Of a stretch of 20,768 nucleotides of DNA, positions 1-19,254 are shown one piece after another (position 1 is the first letter of the stretch; every line of letters starts with the position of its first letter). The notes under the pieces are model-generated. The model ran no database searches. It was not told where the DNA came from and was given only the letters and a program-made list of their open reading frames with translations. The position numbers and the translations under genes are program-made. This DNA comes from a virus. The stretch spans positions 1 through 20,768 of IMG/VR virus record IMGVR_UViG_3300047352_000637, one strand, 5' to 3'.

Positions 1-1839
1 TGCATCGCCATTAAGAAGGTATCGACTATCAGACTCGCCCTCAGCACTGGGGGGCTGAATGATCTTGACCCTGACATCATCAGCATTGTCTGCTTTAGAG
101 CTAGCACTGAGCGATCTGACAAACTCAACGTCAATCACCCAGTACTGGGCCGCGCCTTGGCTCTCATCATGAACCTCAACAACAGTGAACAGGCCGTAAT
201 CTGACTCACCCTGTACAAACAGCTCAATGAGGTCGCCCACGTTTACGTTGGCAAAACCATGCGGCGTGCCGTCGTTGTCTATCTCATTGAGCCATACCGA
301 CTTAGCGCTAGTGAACAAGCCAATGGGTGAGCCAGTGCCGTTCATGCCGTCATACATGGTGAGCTGGCCCTTGTTTCCAACGACACCACCAAGGTTAAAC
401 GTCCACACGCCACGCTCCACAGACGGGGCAATGGCATCGATCTCTTCTTCCAGCTCAATAATCTCGGACTGAAGTCTGTCTACGTCCTCCTGCGTGGCAG
501 CAGGATTCATGGTCACTTCGCAAGGGAAGAATCCAGCTATAGAAACTCCATCAGCGGAAGCATCCTCATAGACCTCAACTGAGCCTTGGTAGAATTGTGG
601 AGGGGCAACCTTCTCAACTCGGAAGCAGGAGTAATTCTCAGTAGGCCAATCACCATCTGGATTGACTACATCAACCTCTTCTACTACCCGCCAAGTATTG
701 TTATGGAAGCCGCCACCTTTCTTCTGCAGGAGCTTGCCGTAGTAATCAGCCTCCCAGAGGCCGTATTCATGCGCCTTAACTTCAATCAGGTCGCCTACCT
801 TCCAGTCTTGGAAAAAGTACTCCTCGTACCCAATGTATGCGCCGTCACCTTCCACAATTGCGCCGGCAAAGCCGACAGCCTTGCTAATCAGTAAGTGTGT
901 TATTGAGTGGGGCTGGTAAGGCTCAGCGCCCTGCCAGTAAACTCCCGGCTTCTGCCAGCCTGATTCGTATACACCCGTATCAGGATTCAGCACTGGGTCG
1001 TCATTAGTGTTTGAATAGCTTTTTGGCGGCATGATTGCCTTGCCATCACCATCAAACTCAAAGTTGCCCCTGAGTTGCATCATCCAGTCTTTGTTTAATT
1101 CGGAATCACTGCCGCTCTCTATTGGTTGCTCAACAGTGACATCACAAAGGCCAATAATCCTATCGCTGTACCTTACCTCGGTGCGCTCATAAAGGTCTTC
1201 TCGCTCGCACTTCTCAACCTTTACGCACTGCCATTCGCCGTGATTAAGTGGCGTACTCCCGTCTTCTTCAATACAGGGAATAATCTCGGTCACTCTCCAG
1301 CGGTGCTGTTCCTTACTAATGTAGCCAGTAGAGTATTTGTCACTCTCATCACGCCGCCGGCCCTCAGATACCCTGACGGTAACGATGTCACCAACGGCGA
1401 TGTTTGGCTTTACGTTACGGTGGGACGCACTCTCCCAGCCGCCCTGCCCGTCATTCTCCTTAAACGAACCAGTGCCGTGGAAGAGAAAGTACTCAACAAG
1501 CTCGGGGGTGTACTGCTCGTCATCTAATCTGTACTGATCGTACTCAGACAGGTGAAAGACGCCGGGGTAATCTGCGTACTCTAGATCGTCATAGTAATCA
1601 CGAGTACCCTTCTGAGAGTTTTTGGGGTTCTCAATAGGGACTACAACCTTGTTGTCATCGGTGAGAGTAAATCCACCGCGCAACTGAAAGAGGTGCTTCT
1701 CAAAGACGCTGTTGTCTTTGCCATCAACAGACTGAACCATCCAACGGTCTTTGTCGTCTTGGTACTTATAGGTAGCGCCGGTAGGCAGCGTAATTTGGTC
1801 GCCGTCTTTAGCGTCTTTTGGGAATGAATAAGCTGTCAT
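1..1839 (-). CDS. Large modular virion (tail/fibre-type) protein, partial, C-terminus off the window
   Basis: The minus-strand frame stays open for 613 codons from the ATG at 1839 to the left edge, so the gene is incomplete. The first ATG overlaps the stop of the upstream gene as ATGA. The protein is built of repeated modules at about residues 50-215, 253-405 and 463-575. Each starts with a strand pattern like QLRGxF, then a VGD-[IL] turn, a W-R-V strand and a C-x-x-VEK strand; the third copy is more divergent. A glutamate-rich coiled coil at about residues 440-460 precedes the third module. This modular, beta-rich, cysteine-poor composition and the place at the distal end of the head operon suggest a tail or fibre-type structural protein. 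I do not recognise a specific family, and no enzymatic motif is visible. The three overlapping plus-strand ORFs here are shadows. Confidence 0.72.
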   Translation of the reverse strand, partial: MTAYSFPKDAKDGDQITLPTGATYKYQDDKDRWMVQSVDGKDNSVFEKHLFQLRGGFTLTDDNKVVVPIENPKNSQKGTRDYYDDLEYADYPGVFHLSEYDQYRLDDEQYTPELVEYFLFHGTGSFKENDGQGGWESASHRNVKPNIAVGDIVTVRVSEGRRRDESDKYSTGYISKEQHRWRVTEIIPCIEEDGSTPLNHGEWQCVKVEKCEREDLYERTEVRYSDRIIGLCDVTVEQPIESGSDSELNKDWMMQLRGNFEFDGDGKAIMPPKSYSNTNDDPVLNPDTGVYESGWQKPGVYWQGAEPYQPHSITHLLISKAVGFAGAIVEGDGAYIGYEEYFFQDWKVGDLIEVKAHEYGLWEADYYGKLLQKKGGGFHNNTWRVVEEVDVVNPDGDWPTENYSCFRVEKVAPPQFYQGSVEVYEDASADGVSIAGFFPCEVTMNPAATQEDVDRLQSEIIELEEEIDAIAPSVERGVWTFNLGGVVGNKGQLTMYDGMNGTGSPIGLFTSAKSVWLNEIDNDGTPHGFANVNVGDLIELFVQGESDYGLFTVVEVHDESQGAAQYWVIDVEFVRSLSASSKADNADDVRVKIIQPPSAEGESDSRYLLNGDA

Positions 1840-6562: not shown

Positions 6563-8585
6563 TAAGAACTTCCTTGTTTTGAACTAACTCGTTGTCTAAT
6601 TGCTTTTTCGCAGCCTGCTCCATCTCGGTGAGCTTGAGCGCTGCATCGGTCTTCAGCTTGTCGTAATCAAACGACTGCTTGGCCGCATCCTTGGCCGAAG
6701 TAAGCTGGTTCTTGAGGTGATCAATCTGAGCCTTCAACTGGCCGTTCTCCATCGTGGCCTGGGCCTTCATCTGCTCGGCGTTAGCAACGCGCATCTGGGC
6801 CTCAAGAGCCGCCTGCTGCATCTGAATCTGCATCTGCTCTTTCTGCATCATCTCCTGCTGCGCGGCCTGATCCTGCTGTGCTTTCATCTGCGCGAACTGC
6901 TGGCCCTCAGGGCCGTTCGGGTTGAGGAAGTACTTCTCGGCCTCACCCAAGTCAGCAAGGCCAACCATGTCATCCAGCGAGTTGTACAACTGCTTGGTGT
7001 CCACCAGCACGTTGTCTGGCATCTGCTTGAACTGCATCTGCGTCTGGAAGATCTGCATCAGCGCGTTGAGCTTCATCTGGTCATCACCAGCGCCAGCACC
7101 GACAGTCACCATCATGCGAGAGCGATCACCCCAGGTACTGGGGTCAACATTCACCCAGTTACCCTTAAACTTGTAAGGCACACAGCCGTTCTGGAACCTG
7201 ACCATGAGGTCGCGAATCATCTTGTAAGCAGGACGCAGCCCGGTCTCAGCGATGGCCCTCACCATAAGGTTCACCAACATCTCCTGGGCCGACATCATTC
7301 GCTCTACGCCGTGAGCAGACTCGTTATTAACAAGCTGGTTCTGGCCAGCCATGTCTGGAGACACGCCAACCCGCGACTGCTTCTGTACATCGGCGTACTG
7401 GAGAAGCTGTAAGGCCTCCCCACCAAAGAACGTGCCACCCAGCTCGGTGACAGCGTTGTGGCCCTTGGCGCGGATAATTCCGCCGGGTCGGTTAACAAGG
7501 AGGTCATCAATATTGACCTGGCCTTCCTGCACGACCTTGATGCGGTTAACAGATTGGTAAAAAGAGTCGAGCGTGGAGCGCAGTACAGCAGTCTTAATGT
7601 CCTGTACCTGCTTGAGCCGATCAAAAATGCTGTTGCCCAGGAATTGGTGGGGCATAGGCATAGTAGACATTGCGACAAAGGGGATCTCAGCGATCTCCTC
7701 AATGTCCAGAATCGAATCAATCTGGCTCTCACCAATGCAAGTCACCTTGCACAGCTCCGAGATGCCGTCCTCATTAATGTCCATCGACAAATACGCTTCA
7801 GTGACCACGATGAGCTTCTGGCTCTCGTCAATGTCGGTCACATGGTGGTGGTAGTTGTCCATGTCGCGATCAAGGTAGCCCTGCTGCGCTTTCTCAATCA
7901 GCTCGGGGTCATACCCCTCTCGTAATAGGTCCGAGGCGGTGCGTCGGCGCGTGTGCGCAACAAACCGGGCGTCTTTTAAATCAAGACTGTCCGCATCGTC
8001 GTTTACACGGAACTCCTCCGCAGGAACCGCCTCGACCCGTACCTTTCCATAGCGCGTAACACGCGCCACAGTGACTGATGTGCCGTCTGTCTCGGAGCGC
8101 TCAATCTCGGTGACCTCTACCATCGGGTCAGCAAGCAAGGCCTCCAACTGAGGCTCCATCAGGCCAGAGTATCTTTCGACCACACGCTCGGGGGTGTCGT
8201 CGTAGTAAATCTTCATAACCCCTACACCCGTCAGCAGCGCGTCTTTCGCCGCCTCGTAGAGGTTAAGGAATCCATTGTTCTCTTCACTGAAAACGAAGTG
8301 CGTGAAATCGGTCTCCAGGTCAGCCTGATCCTCGTCCATAGCCGACATCGGCATGAACTTCACAGACTTGCCGGACAAGCTCTCAACGATATTAGGCAGC
8401 AGCCAGTGGCACGCATCAGCCACATCAGTAGACACGACCTCAGAGCGCCCCTTGACCCCAGATGGGCGAGGCTCATGGCCGTTGTAGTAGCTCATAGCGA
8501 GGTTCTTGCGGTTCACCCACTCGTCGCCAGAGCAATTCACCATTTCATTGGCGATAATGTTCTTGATGTCTTCTTCGTTCATCAT
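6495..8585 (-). CDS. Portal protein
   Basis: Complete 696 aa protein from the double ATG at 8585/8582; the large terminase TGA overlaps it (TGATGATG). The N-terminal region has the motif pattern S-T-D-V-x-D-x-x-x-W-L-L-P-N-I-V-E-S-L at about residues 52-70, seen in portals of podovirus and SU10-like phages. The central part is a mixed alpha/beta clip and wing region. The C-terminal 120 residues are a Gln/Met/Ala-rich coiled coil (QEMMQKEQMQIQMQQAALEA), as expected for the barrel. The tail of about 20 residues is a low-complexity Gly/Ser/Ala/Lys repeat read over the start of the next gene in another frame. Portals form the 12-mer ring through which DNA enters the head. The length is at the upper range for portals. 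Position between terminase and scaffold makes the assignment strong. Confidence 0.9.
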   Translation of the reverse strand: MMNEEDIKNIIANEMVNCSGDEWVNRKNLAMSYYNGHEPRPSGVKGRSEVVSTDVADACHWLLPNIVESLSGKSVKFMPMSAMDEDQADLETDFTHFVFSEENNGFLNLYEAAKDALLTGVGVMKIYYDDTPERVVERYSGLMEPQLEALLADPMVEVTEIERSETDGTSVTVARVTRYGKVRVEAVPAEEFRVNDDADSLDLKDARFVAHTRRRTASDLLREGYDPELIEKAQQGYLDRDMDNYHHHVTDIDESQKLIVVTEAYLSMDINEDGISELCKVTCIGESQIDSILDIEEIAEIPFVAMSTMPMPHQFLGNSIFDRLKQVQDIKTAVLRSTLDSFYQSVNRIKVVQEGQVNIDDLLVNRPGGIIRAKGHNAVTELGGTFFGGEALQLLQYADVQKQSRVGVSPDMAGQNQLVNNESAHGVERMMSAQEMLVNLMVRAIAETGLRPAYKMIRDLMVRFQNGCVPYKFKGNWVNVDPSTWGDRSRMMVTVGAGAGDDQMKLNALMQIFQTQMQFKQMPDNVLVDTKQLYNSLDDMVGLADLGEAEKYFLNPNGPEGQQFAQMKAQQDQAAQQEMMQKEQMQIQMQQAALEAQMRVANAEQMKAQATMENGQLKAQIDHLKNQLTSAKDAAKQSFDYDKLKTDAALKLTEMEQAAKKQLDNELVQNKEVLNGSGSAKGSAKGSAGESRAGAS

Positions 8586-9988
8586 CAGATGTAGTTTTCC
8601 TGGTACTGGATAGGCTCACTCCAGCTACCCTGCAAAAAGTCCTGAACCGTGAACGCATAAGCAAACGCATCGGCTAAGTTCGGGCTGGGCAAGCTAAGAG
8701 GCGGCTTCGCCATCTCTGTCTTCGGCATAAGTTGGATTTTGCCGCCCGCATGTGGCTTCAACGGCAGTCGGCACAGCTCACTTCTTAATTGGCTGATCAG
8801 GGGGTGATCAGGGTCGAGAAAAATCAGCTCATCAGGATCGTGGAACTCACCATCTAGCGCCTGGTACGTCTTCCAAAAACGCTCCCGAACATCCCAGAAA
8901 GCCTGCGCCCTGCGGTTGTAGAACGCATCGCGATTTTTGCGGTGGCCATCGTAGTATGCATCCGGGTCGCGAGGACTTTCGCCGCCACGGAAGGGGGAAA
9001 TAGTGATGTTCCGATTCCCGAGACCTCTCTCAACTTCACGGGCCAAACCAAGGCCAATACCATCCTGGTCGTAGACAAACGAGTCGCAGTGATATCGGTT
9101 AACGTAGTCGAAAGCCCAGTCAATCCCGTCCGAAGCCGTACCATCATGCTTGAGTCCCATATCAAGGACTCTAGCGCCATGCCGTACCACGACCGCTTTT
9201 GCGTCTCGACCACTGTCCGCCACATCGTGGCCGCAGACTCGCGAACCCGAGTCGCGATACTTGATTCTCTCGCCAATCTCCAATGCCGCATCAAACCACT
9301 CCGTCAATATCAGGCTGTTCTCAACCGTGTCGAGGGTCTCGCCATTCCAAACATGCTCATAAATAGCCGGTGGCAGCGATTTCTGGTCCCTACGGCGCTC
9401 TAACTCCAGCTCAGCAGGGAAAAAGGGGTTAACGTCGTAGTTGGCGCGGACAATCGTGTGCAGCTCGTCCTCAAAAACACCCTCAGACCGCAGAATCGAC
9501 TCCCGGCCCTTCAAAAACGTCTCGGTGAACGGATCCGCCTGGCTGCGGGGGTTGGCACACATCAGAAAATAGGAGCCTGCCTCACGAATAGTGGGGGTCA
9601 GCACCCTCAGAGACTCCTCCGAGATGGTCTGAGCCTCCTCAATCCAGCAAACATCTACGCCAAACAGCGATTTGACCGATTCAATGTTCCGAGACAGACC
9701 CCGGAAGACAAATTCACCCCCAGAGCTGTGCGAAATCCGGTCTCGGGTGATCGTGAAGCCCTGTACACCCGTCTCCTCAATCAAATTAGCTACCAGGCTA
9801 TGCACAGACTCCTGGATTGAGTTCTGGAACTCACGACAACACAGGATTCTCTTGCCCTGCACCGCCTCAATAATGCACATCATGGCAACCGTCATCGATT
9901 TGCCAGACCCCCTACCCCCTACCGAAATACGAAATCGCTTCCCAGAAGCTAACAGGGGCCGGAACGCATCCGGAATGTCGATGTTCAT
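8585..9988 (-). CDS. terL: Terminase large subunit
   Basis: 467 aa ATPase-nuclease that packages DNA into the prohead. Walker A is GGRGSGKS at residues 24-31. Walker B is V-D-V-C-W-I-E-E with the catalytic Glu at about residue 117/118. Motif III (MCANP) is at 143-147. The C-terminal RuvC-like nuclease shows acidic residues in GHDVADSGRD (253-262), D-Q-D-G (307-310) and the final Asp in NLADAFAY (437-444). The pattern matches the terminase_3/PBSX-like large subunit family. The start ATG at 9988 overlaps the TGA of the upstream tiny gene; a stretch CGGCCTATG serves as a weak leader, suggesting coupled translation. Complete, with all three nuclease acids and both ATPase motifs present. Confidence 0.95.
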   Translation of the reverse strand: MNIDIPDAFRPLLASGKRFRISVGGRGSGKSMTVAMMCIIEAVQGKRILCCREFQNSIQESVHSLVANLIEETGVQGFTITRDRISHSSGGEFVFRGLSRNIESVKSLFGVDVCWIEEAQTISEESLRVLTPTIREAGSYFLMCANPRSQADPFTETFLKGRESILRSEGVFEDELHTIVRANYDVNPFFPAELELERRRDQKSLPPAIYEHVWNGETLDTVENSLILTEWFDAALEIGERIKYRDSGSRVCGHDVADSGRDAKAVVVRHGARVLDMGLKHDGTASDGIDWAFDYVNRYHCDSFVYDQDGIGLGLAREVERGLGNRNITISPFRGGESPRDPDAYYDGHRKNRDAFYNRRAQAFWDVRERFWKTYQALDGEFHDPDELIFLDPDHPLISQLRSELCRLPLKPHAGGKIQLMPKTEMAKPPLSLPSPNLADAFAYAFTVQDFLQGSWSEPIQYQENYI

Positions 9989-10101
9989 AGGCCGCTATTG
10001 AGCTGCCATAGGTAATACAGGGTCATGAAGCCGCCAAATACGCCAATACCCGCCGCTAGGACGATCACCGCCTCTAACCAGTCATTGGGGAACTTGTCCA
10101 T
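9985..10101 (-). CDS. Tiny single-pass membrane protein, 38 aa
   Basis: Starts at ATG 10101, which shares one base with the TAA of the gene before it, and ends in TGA overlapping the terminase ATG. The peptide has a charged start (MDKFPNDWLE) followed by one long hydrophobic segment (AVIVLAAGIGVFGGFMTLYYLW) and a short polar end. A longer 84 aa reading from 10239 is less likely, because the preceding part is polar and overprints another membrane gene. In T7-like phages holin and spanin genes flank the terminase genes, so a lysis or membrane role is possible, but the sequence alone does not show it. Confidence 0.55.
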   Translation of the reverse strand: MDKFPNDWLEAVIVLAAGIGVFGGFMTLYYLWQLNSGL

Positions 10102-10190
10102 TACAGCGCAGCTACCGAATAGCCAAGCACAAAACAGGTTACTGCGGTGATGGCGAGCAGGCCGTAAGTGTTGAGGGGACGCCAAATCAT
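10101..10190 (-). CDS. Tiny single-pass membrane protein, 29 aa
   Basis: ATG at 10190 follows AGGAACCCCC (Shine-Dalgarno AGGA) on the minus strand. The peptide has a short basic N-terminus (MIWRPLN) and a hydrophobic segment LLAITAVTCFVLGYSVAAL that takes up the rest. Its TAA overlaps the next ATG as TAATG. The good ribosome site and the coupling junction with another membrane peptide support it despite its size. A Cys sits in the hydrophobic stretch, but the -3/-1 residues do not form a lipobox. Function unknown. Confidence 0.5.
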   Translation of the reverse strand: MIWRPLNTYGLLAITAVTCFVLGYSVAAL

Positions 10191-10231
10191 GGGGGTTCCT
10201 GTTAAATTGGGGTATTTCAATTTCCCCTAAA

Positions 10232-10279
10232 GGGGTCAAATCTGGCCAGGGGGGTCTCGGGGGGTCAGATCCGGCCAGG
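10232..10279. repeat. Two direct repeats of 19 bp between terminase genes
   Basis: GGGGTCAAATCTGGCCAGG (10232-10250) and GGGGTCAGATCCGGCCAGG (10261-10279) agree at 17 of 19 positions with a 29-bp period. The inverted repeat CCCCTAAAGGGG (10224-10235) borders the first copy. They lie in the 168-base gap after the small terminase gene, a common place for packaging-initiation sites. Confidence 0.6.
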
Positions 10280-10284
10280 CCTAG

Positions 10285-10304
10285 TGATAATGATTCTCAT
10301 TCGC
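10285..10304. promoter_or_regulatory. Fur-box-like site 1
   Basis: TGATAATGATTCTCA (10285-10299) matches 13 of 14 positions of the 7-1-7 Fur core TGATAAT-N-ATTATCA, and TTCGC continues the palindromic character. It lies between the small terminase gene and the tiny membrane genes. Match to the consensus was made by eye. Confidence 0.4.
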
Positions 10305-10358: not shown

Positions 10359-10826
10359 CTAGTGTTTAGTTGATGGTTGCGCTTGCTCTATCCCTAACGG
10401 ATCCCCATCATCTGGCGGGGGTAGCACTGGTTCATCATGCGCTTTGCTTATTAAATTGATTGTAATATCAGATACTTGTGCGCCTTCTTTACCGTCACCG
10501 TCTAAGAATATGCGCTGCAATTCAGCCTGGGGGACAATGCGGGTCAGTATTGCAAGGGCGTCACTCGGACTGCTATCAGCGATTCTTTCTAATAACTCTT
10601 CCCCCCGCCGGTTCATCAGATCTGTCATAAGGTCTACAAGCCGCGTAGACACCTTATCTTTAGCACCCTTAGGCCTTCCGCCCCCCTTATTACCAGGCAA
10701 AAATTGCCCCGTAATAGGATCACGCTGGGGCTGAATAACCGCCGTTTCTTCAGGGGATTCAGTATCCCCATCTGACATAGCGCTGAGCGTCTCTGTATCG
10801 CTCTCTGTAGACTTTTCTGCACTCAT
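10359..10826 (-). CDS. Probable small terminase subunit (DUF5681-like)
   Basis: 155 aa. ATG at 10826 overlaps the stop of the upstream gene as ATGA. The N-terminal 35 residues are acidic and disordered (Ser/Glu/Asp/Thr). Then comes F-L-P-G-N-K-G-G-G-R-P-K-G-A-K-D-K-V-S (about residues 42-60), the hallmark of DUF5681-type proteins often encoded next to large terminases. A helical domain follows (LVDLMTDLMNRRGEELLERI). The C-terminus is Pro/Asp-rich. The R-P-K-G-A-K-D-K block looks like a DNA-binding entry to a helix-turn-helix. Together with its place before terL, recognition of packaging sites on the phage DNA is the likely role. Not certain, because small terminases diverge widely. Confidence 0.7.
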   Translation of the reverse strand: MSAEKSTESDTETLSAMSDGDTESPEETAVIQPQRDPITGQFLPGNKGGGRPKGAKDKVSTRLVDLMTDLMNRRGEELLERIADSSPSDALAILTRIVPQAELQRIFLDGDGKEGAQVSDITINLISKAHDEPVLPPPDDGDPLGIEQAQPSTKH

Positions 10827-11203: not shown

Positions 11204-11407
11204 ATGCAAAGCAAGTCTGAAGTTTTCGCAAATATATTTTTCGCGCTGGTTTTATCGTGCGCTCTATTTCTTTCAATCAGCGCTGTGATGTCGCTAATCG
11301 TCACAAGCTTTTCACTAACGGCTGTTTGGTGGTTTGCGACAGTAATTGGCTTTAGCACGATTCTATTTATTGAGTATGACCTTAACAAAGTGAGGGCGAA
11401 GCAATGA
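11204..11407 (+). CDS. Small membrane protein with two hydrophobic segments, 67 aa
   Basis: First early gene, ATG with AAAGGA nine bases upstream. Two hydrophobic stretches (about residues 9-35, IFFALVLSCALFLSISAVMS, and 38-57, LTAVWWFATVIGFSTILFI) with a short charged C-terminus. The stop overlaps the next start as ATGA. The position just after the early promoter suggests host take-over or superinfection exclusion, as for other small phage membrane proteins, but this is speculative. Confidence 0.68.
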   Translation: MQSKSEVFANIFFALVLSCALFLSISAVMSLIVTSFSLTAVWWFATVIGFSTILFIEYDLNKVRAKQ

Positions 11408-12580: not shown

Positions 12581-13264
12581 ATGAAATATTTAAGCAAACC
12601 AGGAACGAACGCCAAAACAGCAAAGAGTGACAAGGCTGGCGAGTATCTGACAGCGATTCTATACCTGCTGCCAGATCTGGAATTGTGTCCGATGTCAGAG
12701 CGCGCCGGATGTGCCGCGGCATGCTTGAACACTGCAGGACGCGGAGCATTTAGCAATGTCCAGGAAGCAAGGCGCAAGAAATCGCAAGCGTTTAAAGCCA
12801 ATCCTATTGCGTTTGTAGATCAATTAAAGATTGATATAGCGTCGCACATTCGCTTTTGTGACAGACGCGGCAAGAAGCCGGCAGTGCGATTGAATGGTAC
12901 TAGCGACATACAGTGGGAACGGCTGAAGGGTAGCAACGGATTAACTATCTTTGAGGAGGGTTTGGATTGCGTTCTATATGACTACACCAAGCTAATGACG
13001 CGCAAAGTGCCAGACAATTACCATTTAACCGTTAGTTATTCAGAAGCTAACGCCAAATACGCCGCCAAAGCAGCGAAGACTGACAAAAACATCGCTGTAG
13101 TATTTCGGGATCGATTGCCTAAAGAGTTTTTAGGCCGCCCCGTGATTGATGGTGATAAGCATGATTTGCGCTTTCTTGATCCCCCTGGTTCAGTGGTGGG
13201 ATTGATTGCAAAGGGTAGCGCCAAACGTGACGTAAGCGGGTTTGTTATTGCCCGAAGTGTTTAG
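12581..13264 (+). CDS. Gene product 88-like protein with Cys cluster, 227 aa
   Basis: From ATG 12581, four bases after the preceding stop. The N-terminal part has K-T-A-K-S-D, then the cysteine cluster C36-P-M-S-x4-C44-A-A-A-C48-L (spacing C-x7-C-x3-C), then N-T-A-G-R-G. Central segments VRLNGTSDIQWERL, VLYDYTKLM and HLTVSYSEAN read like successive strands of an alpha/beta barrel, and the C-terminus has IDGDKHDLRFLDPPGSVVGL. This order resembles the Gene product 88 / DUF7227 phage proteins as I remember them; the Cys spacing suggests a metal or Fe-S site, similar in spirit to but not identical with radical-SAM CX3CX2C. Biochemical role unproven. It sits in the early block. Confidence 0.7.
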   Translation: MKYLSKPGTNAKTAKSDKAGEYLTAILYLLPDLELCPMSERAGCAAACLNTAGRGAFSNVQEARRKKSQAFKANPIAFVDQLKIDIASHIRFCDRRGKKPAVRLNGTSDIQWERLKGSNGLTIFEEGLDCVLYDYTKLMTRKVPDNYHLTVSYSEANAKYAAKAAKTDKNIAVVFRDRLPKEFLGRPVIDGDKHDLRFLDPPGSVVGLIAKGSAKRDVSGFVIARSV

Positions 13265-13292
13265 AAAAGTTTACTTTAATTGAGGAATAGAC

Positions 13293-13652
13293 ATGAAAAA
13301 GAAAGATCAAAATGAAGTGGTATTACAAGCATTTTTGCACGGCTTAAAGCTTGGGCATGTGCTGAATGCCCAGGTTGACTCGATATCAGATCATTACATC
13401 GGGTTGATGATTCCCGCCACGCTAGAGGGGTCAGATGATAGCGACCATTTCGGGCAGGTAAATTTTCATTACCTAAAAACGTCCGGAGAAATTTCCGTGT
13501 ATTTCGATACCCTGGACGAACGTATCCACTATGCCGCGCAAGGGTGCGAGCATGAAGCATGGATTGAAGGGGGGATGGCCCTAGATAGCGAACACTGGCA
13601 GAAACAAAAGGCCGCAGAAGAAAAGGAGAGCGGGAACGCTGCCACGCATTAA
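13293..13652 (+). CDS. Hypothetical early protein, last gene of the block, 119 aa
   Basis: ATG with TTGAGGAATAGAC upstream, 28 bases after the previous stop. Basic N-terminus (MKKKDQ), then HLH-like helix (VVLQAFLHGLKLGHVLNAQVDS) and an Asp-rich beta part. C-terminus is charged (QKQKAAEEKESG). The strong terminator begins 20 bases after its stop, so it closes the transcription unit. No family recognised. Confidence 0.6.
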   Translation: MKKKDQNEVVLQAFLHGLKLGHVLNAQVDSISDHYIGLMIPATLEGSDDSDHFGQVNFHYLKTSGEISVYFDTLDERIHYAAQGCEHEAWIEGGMALDSEHWQKQKAAEEKESGNAATH

Positions 13653-13671
13653 GCAAAGCCAAAACGAAGAA

Positions 13672-13697
13672 GGGAGCCATTGCGGCTCCCTTTTTTT
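13672..13697. terminator. Strong bidirectional intrinsic terminator
   Basis: GGGAGCC pairs with GGCTCCC around ATTGC and is followed by TTTTTTT on the plus strand. On the minus strand the same stem is followed by TTCTTCGTTTT. It separates the early rightward genes from the leftward regulatory block and can end both. Confidence 0.9.
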
Positions 13698-13798
13698 GTG
13701 CTTGTTGTTTCTCACTAGGCGCGACTCTCGCCGCCTATCCTTGTGCGCTCCGCCCCGATGCCTGGAGTGTTTCGCTGTTAGATTGTTTATCGGATTCC

Positions 13799-13921
13799 TT
13801 ATCCGAGCATTAGCCATAACATAACCCCCAGCGCCGTAAATAGCGCAAGCGTAGTGGCGCGCTCTACGTCCAAATAAAAACAACGCTTGACTCTGTCACT
13901 GTTTCTAGTGATAGGTTTCAT
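13799..13921 (-). CDS. Tiny membrane protein, 40 aa
   Basis: ATG 13921 overlaps the TGA of the upstream 68 aa gene (ATGA). The peptide has a basic, soluble N-terminal half (MKPITRNSDRVKRCFYLDVE) and a hydrophobic C-terminal half (TTLALFTALGVMLWLMLG), the layout of a tail-anchored single-pass protein. Coupled to its neighbour, so expressed together. Function unknown. Confidence 0.55.
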   Translation of the reverse strand: MKPITRNSDRVKRCFYLDVERATTLALFTALGVMLWLMLG

Positions 13922-14124
13922 ATCGTCTGCAATATTGATATTTGATCTTTATAGATGGCGATAGCTTCCAATTCATCTTCGCACGCATCAAACCAGCTCG
14001 CACCTGGTGGCACACATGGGGCCGCGAGCAATAACTTCAATTGGTGTTCATGCTTGGCGCGCTCGCCGTCCGCGTGGCGCATCAACGCGGAAATGTTATC
14101 GCTTTTGGTTATATGTTCAGACAT
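13918..14124 (-). CDS. Hypothetical helical protein, 68 aa
   Basis: ATG 14124 with AAGGTC about 8 bases upstream. Helical, with a Cys in PCVPPG and another in DACEDELEA (residues about 36-51). No family recognised. It is preceded by the Fur-box-like site and followed by the coupled 40 aa membrane protein, so the two may form a small regulated cassette. Confidence 0.6.
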   Translation of the reverse strand: MSEHITKSDNISALMRHADGERAKHEHQLKLLLAAPCVPPGASWFDACEDELEAIAIYKDQISILQTI

Positions 14125-14144
14125 GGTTATGACCTTTTGTTTAT

Positions 14145-14164
14145 TGAGAATGATTATCGTTCAA
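14145..14164. promoter_or_regulatory. Fur-box-like site 2
   Basis: TGAGAATGATTATCG (14145-14159) matches 12 of 14 positions of TGATAAT-N-ATTATCA. Its complement holds GATAAT, a good -10, for the 68 aa gene starting at 14124. It and site 1 agree at 14 of 17 positions. Placed like a repressor site over a promoter. Confidence 0.4.
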
Positions 14165-14769: not shown

Positions 14770-15117
14770 TTACTTTAATACCAAATTTTCCAGCCAATCT
14801 ATGGCTAATCGCTGGTTATCTGCTGAGAGCTTGTTGAGCGCCCTCTGAGCGCGTTCTGAACGACGGGACAGCATCAGGTCAAGGCTCGCCTCGGGCGTTA
14901 TGAGGGCGTGTGGGGACAGCCTCATAGCCTTGGCGATCTTCTCAATAGTAGATAGCGAGGGCGAGTTGCTGCCCTCACAGAGGTTGTATACGGATCTCAG
15001 AGACATCCCGCTGGCCCTGGAAAGGTCGCGGTAAGACATCTCCATCTCCTTGAGAATACGTTGCAGGTTGTTAGCAAACACTAACGTCATTTCAGAACCT
15101 TCTTTGAGGTCATTCAT
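14770..15117 (-). CDS. XRE-family (Cro/CI-type) transcriptional repressor
   Basis: 115 aa. Residues about 15-70 form the helix-turn-helix: NNLQRILKEMEMSYRDLSRASGM, SLRSVYNLCEG, then SPSLSTIEKIAKAMRLSP, the classic Cro/CI order. The remaining C-terminal part is a charged helix (LSRRSERAQRALNKLSADNQRLAIDWLE). No S24 peptidase domain, so it would not be cleaved by RecA. ATG 15117 is the outer start; ATG 15090 has a better AGAAGGT site and is an alternative. Two ACATATGT palindromes overlap its promoter, so auto-regulation is likely. It hints at a temperate lifestyle, though no integrase is in view. Confidence 0.85.
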   Translation of the reverse strand: MNDLKEGSEMTLVFANNLQRILKEMEMSYRDLSRASGMSLRSVYNLCEGSNSPSLSTIEKIAKAMRLSPHALITPEASLDLMLSRRSERAQRALNKLSADNQRLAIDWLENLVLK

Positions 15118-17360: not shown

Positions 17361-19254
17361 GCTTTCTGATTACCAAACTCTTATTCACGCAAGCCGTTAT
17401 GCACGTTGGCTGGACGATGAGCAGCGCCGTGAGACCTGGCCGGAAACCTGCAAGCGATACACCGACTTCTGGTTAAACAAGGAAATGATTACCGAGGCCG
17501 AAGCAAAGCGCTTAACTAAGGCTATTGAAGAGATGCATTGCATGCCCTCAATGCGCGCTATGTGGGTAGCTGGAGAGGCGCTGGATCGTGACAACGCTGC
17601 CGGGTTCAATTGTACCTATGTCGCGGTAGATCATCCCCGTAGCTTTGATGAGGCCTGCTACTTACTCTGCTGTGGCGCTGGCGTAGGATTTTCTGTCGAA
17701 CGACAGTACATCAACAAGTTGCCAGAAGTCCCAGAGGACATGGTTCCCTGTGACACCGTCATCGTGGTTGCTGACAGCAAGCAGGGTTGGGCCTCTGCTC
17801 TACGTCAACTGATCTCCCTACTCTACTCTGGTCATGTGCCGACATGGGATGTCAGCCGCGTGAGGCCAGAGGGGGCTAGGCTGAAAGTTTTCGGCGGTCG
17901 CGCAAGCGGACCCGGCCCGTTGGTGAACTTGTTCAAGCAGGTAGTGAGCATCTTCCAAGGCGCAGCAGGACGCAAACTTAACAGCGTCGAATGCTTGGAC
18001 ATCATGACCCACATTGGAGCAGCTATTGTTGTAGGGGGTGTGCGGCGCTCAGCGATGATCTCACTGTCTAACGTATCTGATGACAGGATGAGAATGGCGA
18101 AGTCAGGCGCATGGTATGACCTGCACGGCAACCGGGCGCTGGCTAACAACTCTGCCGCCTACACAGAGAAGCCTGAGTTTGCTGTCTTCCAGGCAGAGAT
18201 GAAGGCGCTGTTTGAAAGCTACTCTGGGGAGCGCGGGGTATTCAATCGCGAGGGAGCGCAGAAGAAAATTGCTGCCCACGGGAGGCGCGATCCAGATCAG
18301 GAGTTCGGTGGAAATCCTTGCCTGGAAATTCTACTCCCCAGCGGCAATGGGGGTGGCTCAGCATGCAACTTGAGCGAGGTGATCATCCGTCCCGACGACA
18401 CGCTGGCCTCTCTTAAAAAGAAGATCGAAATAGCAGCCATTTTTGGAACGCTGCAATCGACCTTAACCAACTGGCGTTATGTTCGTAAGGGTTGGATTGA
18501 CAACATAGAGCGTGAGCGACTGCTCGGCATCAGCTTCACTGGCATCTGTGATCACGTTGTGATGAGCGGCCAGGAAGGTTACGACAAGCTGGGTAAGTGG
18601 CTGCGTGAACTGCGCGACCACGCAGAGCAGGTTAATGAGCAGTGGGCAGAGCGCCTCGGTATTAACCCCTCGCATTCTGTTTCTTGCGTAAAGCCATCTG
18701 GCACTGTGAGCCAGCTCGTAGACTGCAGCAGTGGGATCCATCCACGCTACAGCAAGTATTACACCCGGCGGATAAGACAGTCGCTATCCGATCCATTAAC
18801 GAGCTTCCTTATCGACCAGGGCGTCCCGCATGAGCCATGTGTCATGCAGCCCGACAGCACGATTGTCTTCGACTTCTTTGTTGAGTCACCAGATCACAGT
18901 CTGACTGTCTCTGACATGGGAACCATTGATCAGCTAGAGCTTGCCAAGTGCTACGGCGAGAACTTCGCGACCCACACTGTCAGCGCCACTACCTATTACA
19001 CAGAAGACACTTGGTTCGATGCGTGTAGCTGGATGTGGAAGAACTGGGACAGCCTGGTCGGCATGAGTTTCCTCCCGCACGATGGGGGTAGCTATCAACA
19101 AGCGCCATATGAAGAGATCGATTTAGCCGAGTACAACCAGATCAGCATGTGCCTAGAGCCTATCGACTGGTCTTTATTACCAGACTACGAACGCGGAGAC
19201 ACGACAGAGGGAGCTAAGACCGCTGCCTGCGTCGGGGATTCTTGTGAGCTGTAA
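17353..19254 (+). CDS. nrdJ: Adenosylcobalamin-dependent (class II) ribonucleoside-triphosphate reductase
   Basis: 633 aa, GTG start with GGAGG about 10 bases upstream. Active-site residues are all in place: radical Cys323 with Asn321 and Glu325 in N-P-C-L-E, redox pair Cys87 (FNCTYV) and Cys338 (ACNLSEV), phosphate-binding P-S-G-T at 448-451, and C-terminal C-x4-C (Cys626, Cys631) that shuttles electrons from thioredoxin. The pattern is the monomeric RTPR type of Lactobacillus leichmannii, but about 100 residues shorter than that 739 aa enzyme, as in other phages. It makes dNTPs for phage replication without iron or oxygen, using B12. No thioredoxin is seen nearby. Confidence 0.95.
   Translation: MSKLSDYQTLIHASRYARWLDDEQRRETWPETCKRYTDFWLNKEMITEAEAKRLTKAIEEMHCMPSMRAMWVAGEALDRDNAAGFNCTYVAVDHPRSFDEACYLLCCGAGVGFSVERQYINKLPEVPEDMVPCDTVIVVADSKQGWASALRQLISLLYSGHVPTWDVSRVRPEGARLKVFGGRASGPGPLVNLFKQVVSIFQGAAGRKLNSVECLDIMTHIGAAIVVGGVRRSAMISLSNVSDDRMRMAKSGAWYDLHGNRALANNSAAYTEKPEFAVFQAEMKALFESYSGERGVFNREGAQKKIAAHGRRDPDQEFGGNPCLEILLPSGNGGGSACNLSEVIIRPDDTLASLKKKIEIAAIFGTLQSTLTNWRYVRKGWIDNIERERLLGISFTGICDHVVMSGQEGYDKLGKWLRELRDHAEQVNEQWAERLGINPSHSVSCVKPSGTVSQLVDCSSGIHPRYSKYYTRRIRQSLSDPLTSFLIDQGVPHEPCVMQPDSTIVFDFFVESPDHSLTVSDMGTIDQLELAKCYGENFATHTVSATTYYTEDTWFDACSWMWKNWDSLVGMSFLPHDGGSYQQAPYEEIDLAEYNQISMCLEPIDWSLLPDYERGDTTEGAKTAACVGDSCEL

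Follow-up and report, generated by a model that had tools for sequence, protein, structure and literature searches.

A coupled pair of membrane microprotein genes between the terminase genes of a phage, with a possible role in lysis

Two small genes in the terS-terL interval

The window, by which we mean the whole stretch of DNA that was analysed, is a viral fragment of 20,768 nt (20.8 kb) from IMG/VR record IMGVR_UViG_3300047352_000637. Relatives of this marine-type phage reach 30-40 kb, and about half of the genome is missing from the window. Two very small genes, pep1 and pep2, lie on its minus strand between a terS-like gene and the gene for the terminase large subunit (terL):

8585-9988, minus strand: terL, with profile matches to phrog_3717 (5e-44) and phrog_2 (7e-42)
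9985-10101, minus strand: pep2, 38 aa, MDKFPNDWLEAVIVLAAGIGVFGGFMTLYYLWQLNSGL; ATG at 10101, stop ending at 9985; member of the PNDWLE family, probably holin-like
10101-10190, minus strand: pep1, 29 aa, MIWRPLNTYGLLAITAVTCFVLGYSVAAL; ATG at 10190, stop ending at 10101; member of the WRPxNTYG microprotein family
10197-10200, minus strand: AGGA, the ribosome site of pep1, 6 nt before its start
10283-10301, no strand assigned: palindrome resembling a Fur box, about 95 nt 5' of pep1, with 1 mismatch to AATGANAATNATTNTCATT
10359-10826, minus strand: terS-like gene, assigned by position and by alignment with clade members; matches phrog_8771, of unknown function, at 1.7e-6

A first-pass annotation had described a coupled pair of single-pass membrane peptides here, with a good ribosome site on the first, and its coordinates, both junctions and the AGGA at 10200-10197 were all verified. 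The junction between pep1 and pep2 is TAATG on the minus strand, with a single base shared, and pep2 passes into terL through ATGA, the terL start at 9988 lying within the pep2 stop. A single hydrophobic segment is present in each peptide (best Kyte-Doolittle mean over 19 aa 2.15 for pep1 and 2.03 for pep2). In pep1 it follows a short basic N-terminus, and the positive-inside rule predicts an N-in, C-out topology for both. A resemblance to DUF5681 is seen in the terS-like genes of clade members.

Could frames this short have arisen by chance in a stretch between terS and terL that serves as a leader or in packaging? The region does hold conserved non-coding elements, namely the Fur-like box, GACCCCC repeats and a CCTTTA/TATATA-like element. 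Against this, L002, the nearest relative of the window (TerL 97%), retains both peptides, both overlaps and the ribosome site, its AGGA unchanged. Pairwise dN/dS (NG86) between the two is 0.14 for pep1, 0.28 for pep2 and 0.23 for terL, with both peptides well below 1. The substitutions are conservative in a permutation test that places the same changes at random and scores how often they come out as mild and free of stops (P = 0.0005 for pep1, 0.00025 for pep2). Frame +1 across pep1 acquires a stop in the same comparison, and only 1 in 5000 shuffles of the region yields two hydrophobic frames that start with ATG and stay open for 25 aa or more. The annotation had proposed looking for the pair in related phages, with its loss in close relatives counting against it; L002 shows no such loss, and homologs of both peptides occur in more distant phages and in other contexts. 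The substitution pattern and these homologs refute the chance-frame reading, which we regard as barely credible, and show that pep1 and pep2 are genes under protein-level selection. An 84-aa TTG-started frame containing pep2 was rejected, because its extension across pep1 (frame +2) changes non-conservatively relative to L002.

Two microprotein families and the slot where they meet

The pep1 family is defined by the motif R-[VIL]-[WY]-R-[PR]-x-N-T-[YV]-G followed by one transmembrane segment (TM). Searching with [VIL][WY]R[PR]xNT[YV]G plus one TM returned 131 IMG/VR stretches, 105 of them confirmed as family members. None of the 49 distinct DNA versions compared (77 loci) departs from the R, N, T and G, a result biased by the use of the motif as search pattern; dN/dS in the family is 0.16-0.23, with a median outside the motif of 0.23 (159 pairs). 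No significant profile match was found in PHROGs, Pfam, NCBIfam or PDB, tblastn against 50,697 phage records returned nothing credible, and pep1 is absent from 369 gammaproteobacterial genomes, a set that contains no positive control. pep1 is a member of a broad unnamed phage microprotein family missing from the databases checked.

Members of this family lie mostly 3' of terL. Among 78 loci, pep1 is flanked by terL and portal in 47, precedes a different type of portal in 6 and directly precedes terL in about 5; in a further 8 it closes an early operon, several of these copies adjoining DUF4224/integrase genes, and in 5 it separates the gene for a small heat-shock protein (sHSP) from that for a T4-like DNA polymerase. 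DUF4224 and integrase-like genes adjoin pep1 at G003 1-1101 (minus strand) and G019 12618-13731 (plus strand), which suggests that some clade members are temperate.

The pep2 family (34-86 aa) carries a PNDWLE motif before its single TM. Profile searches of the TerL clade recovered homologs in L003, L004, L007, L010, L014/G003, L015, L017/G001, L104, G019 and others, with weaker matches in L106-L108. Most of these are longer than the peptide of the window, reaching 55-86 aa and beginning with a basic arm, and the gene lies immediately 5' of terS in L003, L010, L014, L015, L017 and L104, as do the weaker matches. More distant podovirus-type contigs (G016/L225, L205, L183, L193, L228) have a pep2 of 34-37 aa just 5' of terL. 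As these positions show, pep2 genes usually open the packaging/late operon, directly upstream of terS or terL. The window has no copy 5' of terS, its copy lying between terS and terL. For pep2, PHROGs, Pfam and NCBIfam gave no significant profile match and tblastn against the same 50,697 records nothing credible.

In the lineage of the window, L002, L004 and L007, the two families meet in the terS-terL slot and are coupled translationally, in either order. The window and L002 have the order pep1-pep2; L004 and L007 have pep2-pep1 in the same slot, coupled by ATGA.

In other relatives the slot holds different cargo, which comes after a conserved leader. L104, L106 and L108 have a metzincin lipoprotein of about 410-480 aa (HExxHxxGxxH, Reprolysin-like, Reprolysin_4 6e-6), together with a small HExxH protein and a second, small lipoprotein whose gene runs up to terL; L009 and L015-L017 have secreted or soluble proteins, and the slot of L011 is empty. 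A 230-280-aa lipoprotein (CASADxKxxYRDAQ...), found in L004 (410-1186), L005, L007, G001 (509-1273, minus strand) and G002 (18367-19206), changes place among related phages, lying in the tail region, 5' of terS or in the terS-terL slot.

Non-coding elements are conserved in the leaders of the clade, which run from terS to the slot ORF (positions 10200-10280 in the window): GACCCCCxxGACCCCCC repeats and a CCTTTA...TATATA motif, possibly a packaging site or a late promoter. The palindrome at 10283-10301 (0 expected in 100 shuffles) is a putative Fur box, judged against the Vibrionaceae consensus (quoted in PMC5511505). Scanning found a Fur-like box matching at least 16/19 positions at 14 of 18 clade loci, some of them near-identical contigs; it lies at the same place, 5' of the slot, and precedes differing cargo genes. 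A second site of this kind occurs at window positions 14143-14161, 19-37 nt 5' of a 68-aa ORF (13918-14124, minus strand). In L102 the homolog of this ORF is directly 3' of a Fur-like box, and further homologs precede the pep2 cassette. The window also has a Cro/CI-type HTH gene at 14770-15117 (minus strand).

Lysis, timing or host interaction

Holins, which release endolysin through timed lesions in the membrane, are in general small inner-membrane proteins with 1-4 TM segments, encoded in the late or lysis region. By its build and position pep2 fits this description, being small, with one predicted TM, in a late operon beside the terminase and with lysis-cassette neighbours. The YDDGS secreted-protein family, found in the lysis cassette of G017, also occurs beside the pep2 cassette in L010/L014. 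The first-pass annotation had further argued from the lack of a lysis gene elsewhere in the sequence; this observation is uninformative, since missing lysis genes prove nothing in a fragment of a 30-40 kb phage type, and a strongly hydrophobic 67-aa ORF is present besides. That ORF (11204-11407, plus strand) lies at the start of a divergent early operon and has no relatives among the compared loci and no family match.

Among nearly complete genomes of relatives, all four with pep2 (G001, G003, G016, G019) also carry pep1, and three others (G014, G017, G018) have pep1 without pep2. An M15 endolysin is present in all three pep1-only genomes (in G014 as a Peptidase_M15_3 match, 7e-11) and was not found in the four pep2 genomes; G018 also matches GTA_holin_3TM (4e-20). 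The G014 and G018 matches indicate that genomes without pep2 have a different holin. No endolysin of any kind was recognised in G001, G003 or G016 (for G016, among the best 25 of 48 families), the search in G019 having covered M15 and motifs only, and the 40 kb of G016 yielded no credible TM proteins other than pep1 and pep2. On this co-occurrence pattern, an inverse relation that rests on seven genomes, we take pep2 for the holin-like protein of the phages that carry it, and think it somewhat more likely than not that it is a holin-like lysis protein. The same genomes make pep1 unlikely to be the main holin where it is found, as in G018, alongside a proper 3TM holin and an endolysin. pep1 may instead be a membrane accessory of the phage, possibly related to lysis, a reading to which we give a little less than an even chance.

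The best overall explanation, which we hold to be about evenly balanced between right and wrong, is that pep2 is a holin-like lysis protein and pep1 a co-expressed membrane accessory. The pair would be expressed late, along with terL; pep2 would insert N-in/C-out into the inner membrane late in infection, accumulate, and then trigger collapse of that membrane by permeabilising it. pep1 would bind a conserved partner through its WRPxNTYG face, probably on the cytoplasmic side, and would either tune lysis, as suspected for T7 gene 19.5, or act on a target in the host membrane. Several observations stand against a lysis reading: at 38 aa, the pep2 of the window is short for a holin; comparisons of either peptide with Pfam, PHROGs, NCBIfam and the T7 proteins gp17.5 and gp19.5 reveal no sequence link to any known holin; the pep2 genomes yielded no recognised endolysin to partner the supposed holin; and the positions of pep1 at the end of the early operon by an integrase, or beside a T4-like DNA polymerase, are ill-suited to a lysis gene.

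Could the pair be a holin (pep2) with an antiholin (pep1) as its timing partner? The coupling in both orders within the lineage of the window would suit such a division of labour, as would the presence of pep1 in every nearly complete pep2 genome. However, pep1 is widespread without pep2 and often unlinked from it, and the two peptides lack the mutual similarity expected of hetero-oligomers of the dual-start type. We consider this reading unlikely.

A stronger contender, though one we place somewhat below an even chance, is that pep1, and perhaps pep2 as well, has no part in lysis and is a membrane microprotein for host interaction or superinfection exclusion, the terminase slot simply offering a tolerant, well-transcribed insertion site. 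The unlinked positions of pep1 (terL/portal, before terL, the early-operon end by DUF4224/integrase, and sHSP/T4-like DNA polymerase) point this way, as do the unrelated cargo or none in the slot of relatives (metzincin lipoprotein, HExxH and secreted proteins), the coexistence with a 3TM holin and endolysin in G018, and the invariant R, N, T and G, with the same reservation that the motif was also the search pattern. Set against these are the 47 of 78 copies locked between terL and portal, where late expression is expected, and the fixed place of pep2 in the late cassette beside lysis-associated genes. Given the early-operon and T4-like positions and the coexistence with another holin, we put a role for pep1 outside lysis at about even odds.

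WRPxNTYG may mark one ancient, horizontally spread family, found in podovirus-type and T4-like phages from many metagenomes and absent from the cultured-phage collection searched, whose invariant R-x-W-R-P-x-N-T-Y-G face would dock on a conserved host inner-membrane partner, with pep2 as a new holin family. We consider this combination doubtful, though somewhat less so than the antiholin pairing. If it were true, pep2 would serve phages that lack a recognised endolysin and would indicate a lysis route of a kind not yet described.

Of the two peptides, pep1 holds the greater interest, as it opens onto a widespread unnamed family. Gene callers tend to miss ORFs of 29 codons. More than 100 environmental phage contigs, representing two phage types at the least, carry the family, and none of the cultured phage records searched does. 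This makes it useful as a marker and gives practical access to the ways in which uncultured marine phages control or disrupt the inner membrane of the host. With pep1 and pep2 occurring together, and no endolysin recognised in pep2 genomes, the way in which these phages lyse their hosts can be tested directly.

Comparison with T7 and other phage systems

The first-pass annotation had likened the locus to T7-like phages, which place holin and spanin genes around the terminase genes. As a guide to gene order the comparison is useful: the T7 order, read from NC_001604, is 17.5-18-18.5/18.7-19-19.5, with 19.5 the next annotated gene 3' of terL, separated from it by a gap and a promoter. By sequence, the phage of the window is not T7-like. 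Its TerL is closest to Murrayvirus-type and Sf6-type enzymes (35-40%), and its relatives have SU10-type capsid, portal and adaptor proteins. A TerL search of genome contigs, made with the host in view, found only relatives at about 33%. Compared with gp17.5, gp19.5 and the spanins, both peptides score no better than shuffled controls, and the link of the pair to T7 is one of position and topology only.

By this comparison the annotation had implied holin and spanin roles for the pair; a holin-like role is plausible for pep2, and the spanin idea finds no support. A spanin pair comprises an inner- and an outer-membrane subunit, and the T7 spanins 18.5/18.7 are encoded between terS and terL (PMC3276506), the interval that pep1 and pep2 occupy. 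The T7 i-spanin, however, has 143 aa and a coiled coil, and its o-spanin is a lipoprotein; read directly, pep1 and pep2 show neither a lipobox (AVTC at best) nor a periplasmic coiled coil, and both are far too short to span the periplasm. Among relatives, L104, L106, L107 and L108 encode separate small lipoproteins that make better spanin candidates. The spanin-pair reading was rejected on these sequence features and is very improbable. A similarity among 'LLRKAV' lipoproteins of L010/L014 was considered as an o-spanin family and dropped, much of the shared end being the terL ribosome site.

The T7 holin gp17.5 (PF10746, Phage_holin_2_2) is a small membrane protein encoded immediately 5' of terS, like most pep2 homologs. 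It differs from them in that pep2 has the PNDWLE motif, 34-86 aa and no sequence match to it, and the pep2 of the window lies 3' of terS. The PF10746 model had no match, at E up to 10, in nine records with pep2 homologs or relatives, and the pep2 of the window has no Pfam hit; with family model and direct comparison both negative, membership of pep2 in the T7-type holins was rejected.

Relatives with pep1 can also encode GTA_holin_3TM (PF11351; G018 matches the model), which shares a cassette with the M15 endolysin. This holin differs from pep2 in having three TMs and about 130-150 aa and is found where pep2 is absent; the pep1 family has no clear similarity to it, one member reaching E 0.09 over the TM only.

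A parallel to pep1 in position is T7 gp19.5 (49 aa), a small TM protein encoded 3' of terL, as at the 47 terL-portal loci of pep1, and likewise with a basic N-terminus before the TM. It differs in lacking the WRPxNTYG motif, and its alignment with pep1 scores 2.0 bits, with 6 of 100 shuffles as good or better. Since the comparisons with gp17.5 and gp19.5 stay at shuffle level, we propose that the peptides may work like these proteins and do not claim membership of their families. Gene 19.5 is suspected to compensate for holin loss, and a lysis role has been proposed for it (PMC8365609), so its place 3' of terL offers a functional precedent for the commonest position of pep1.
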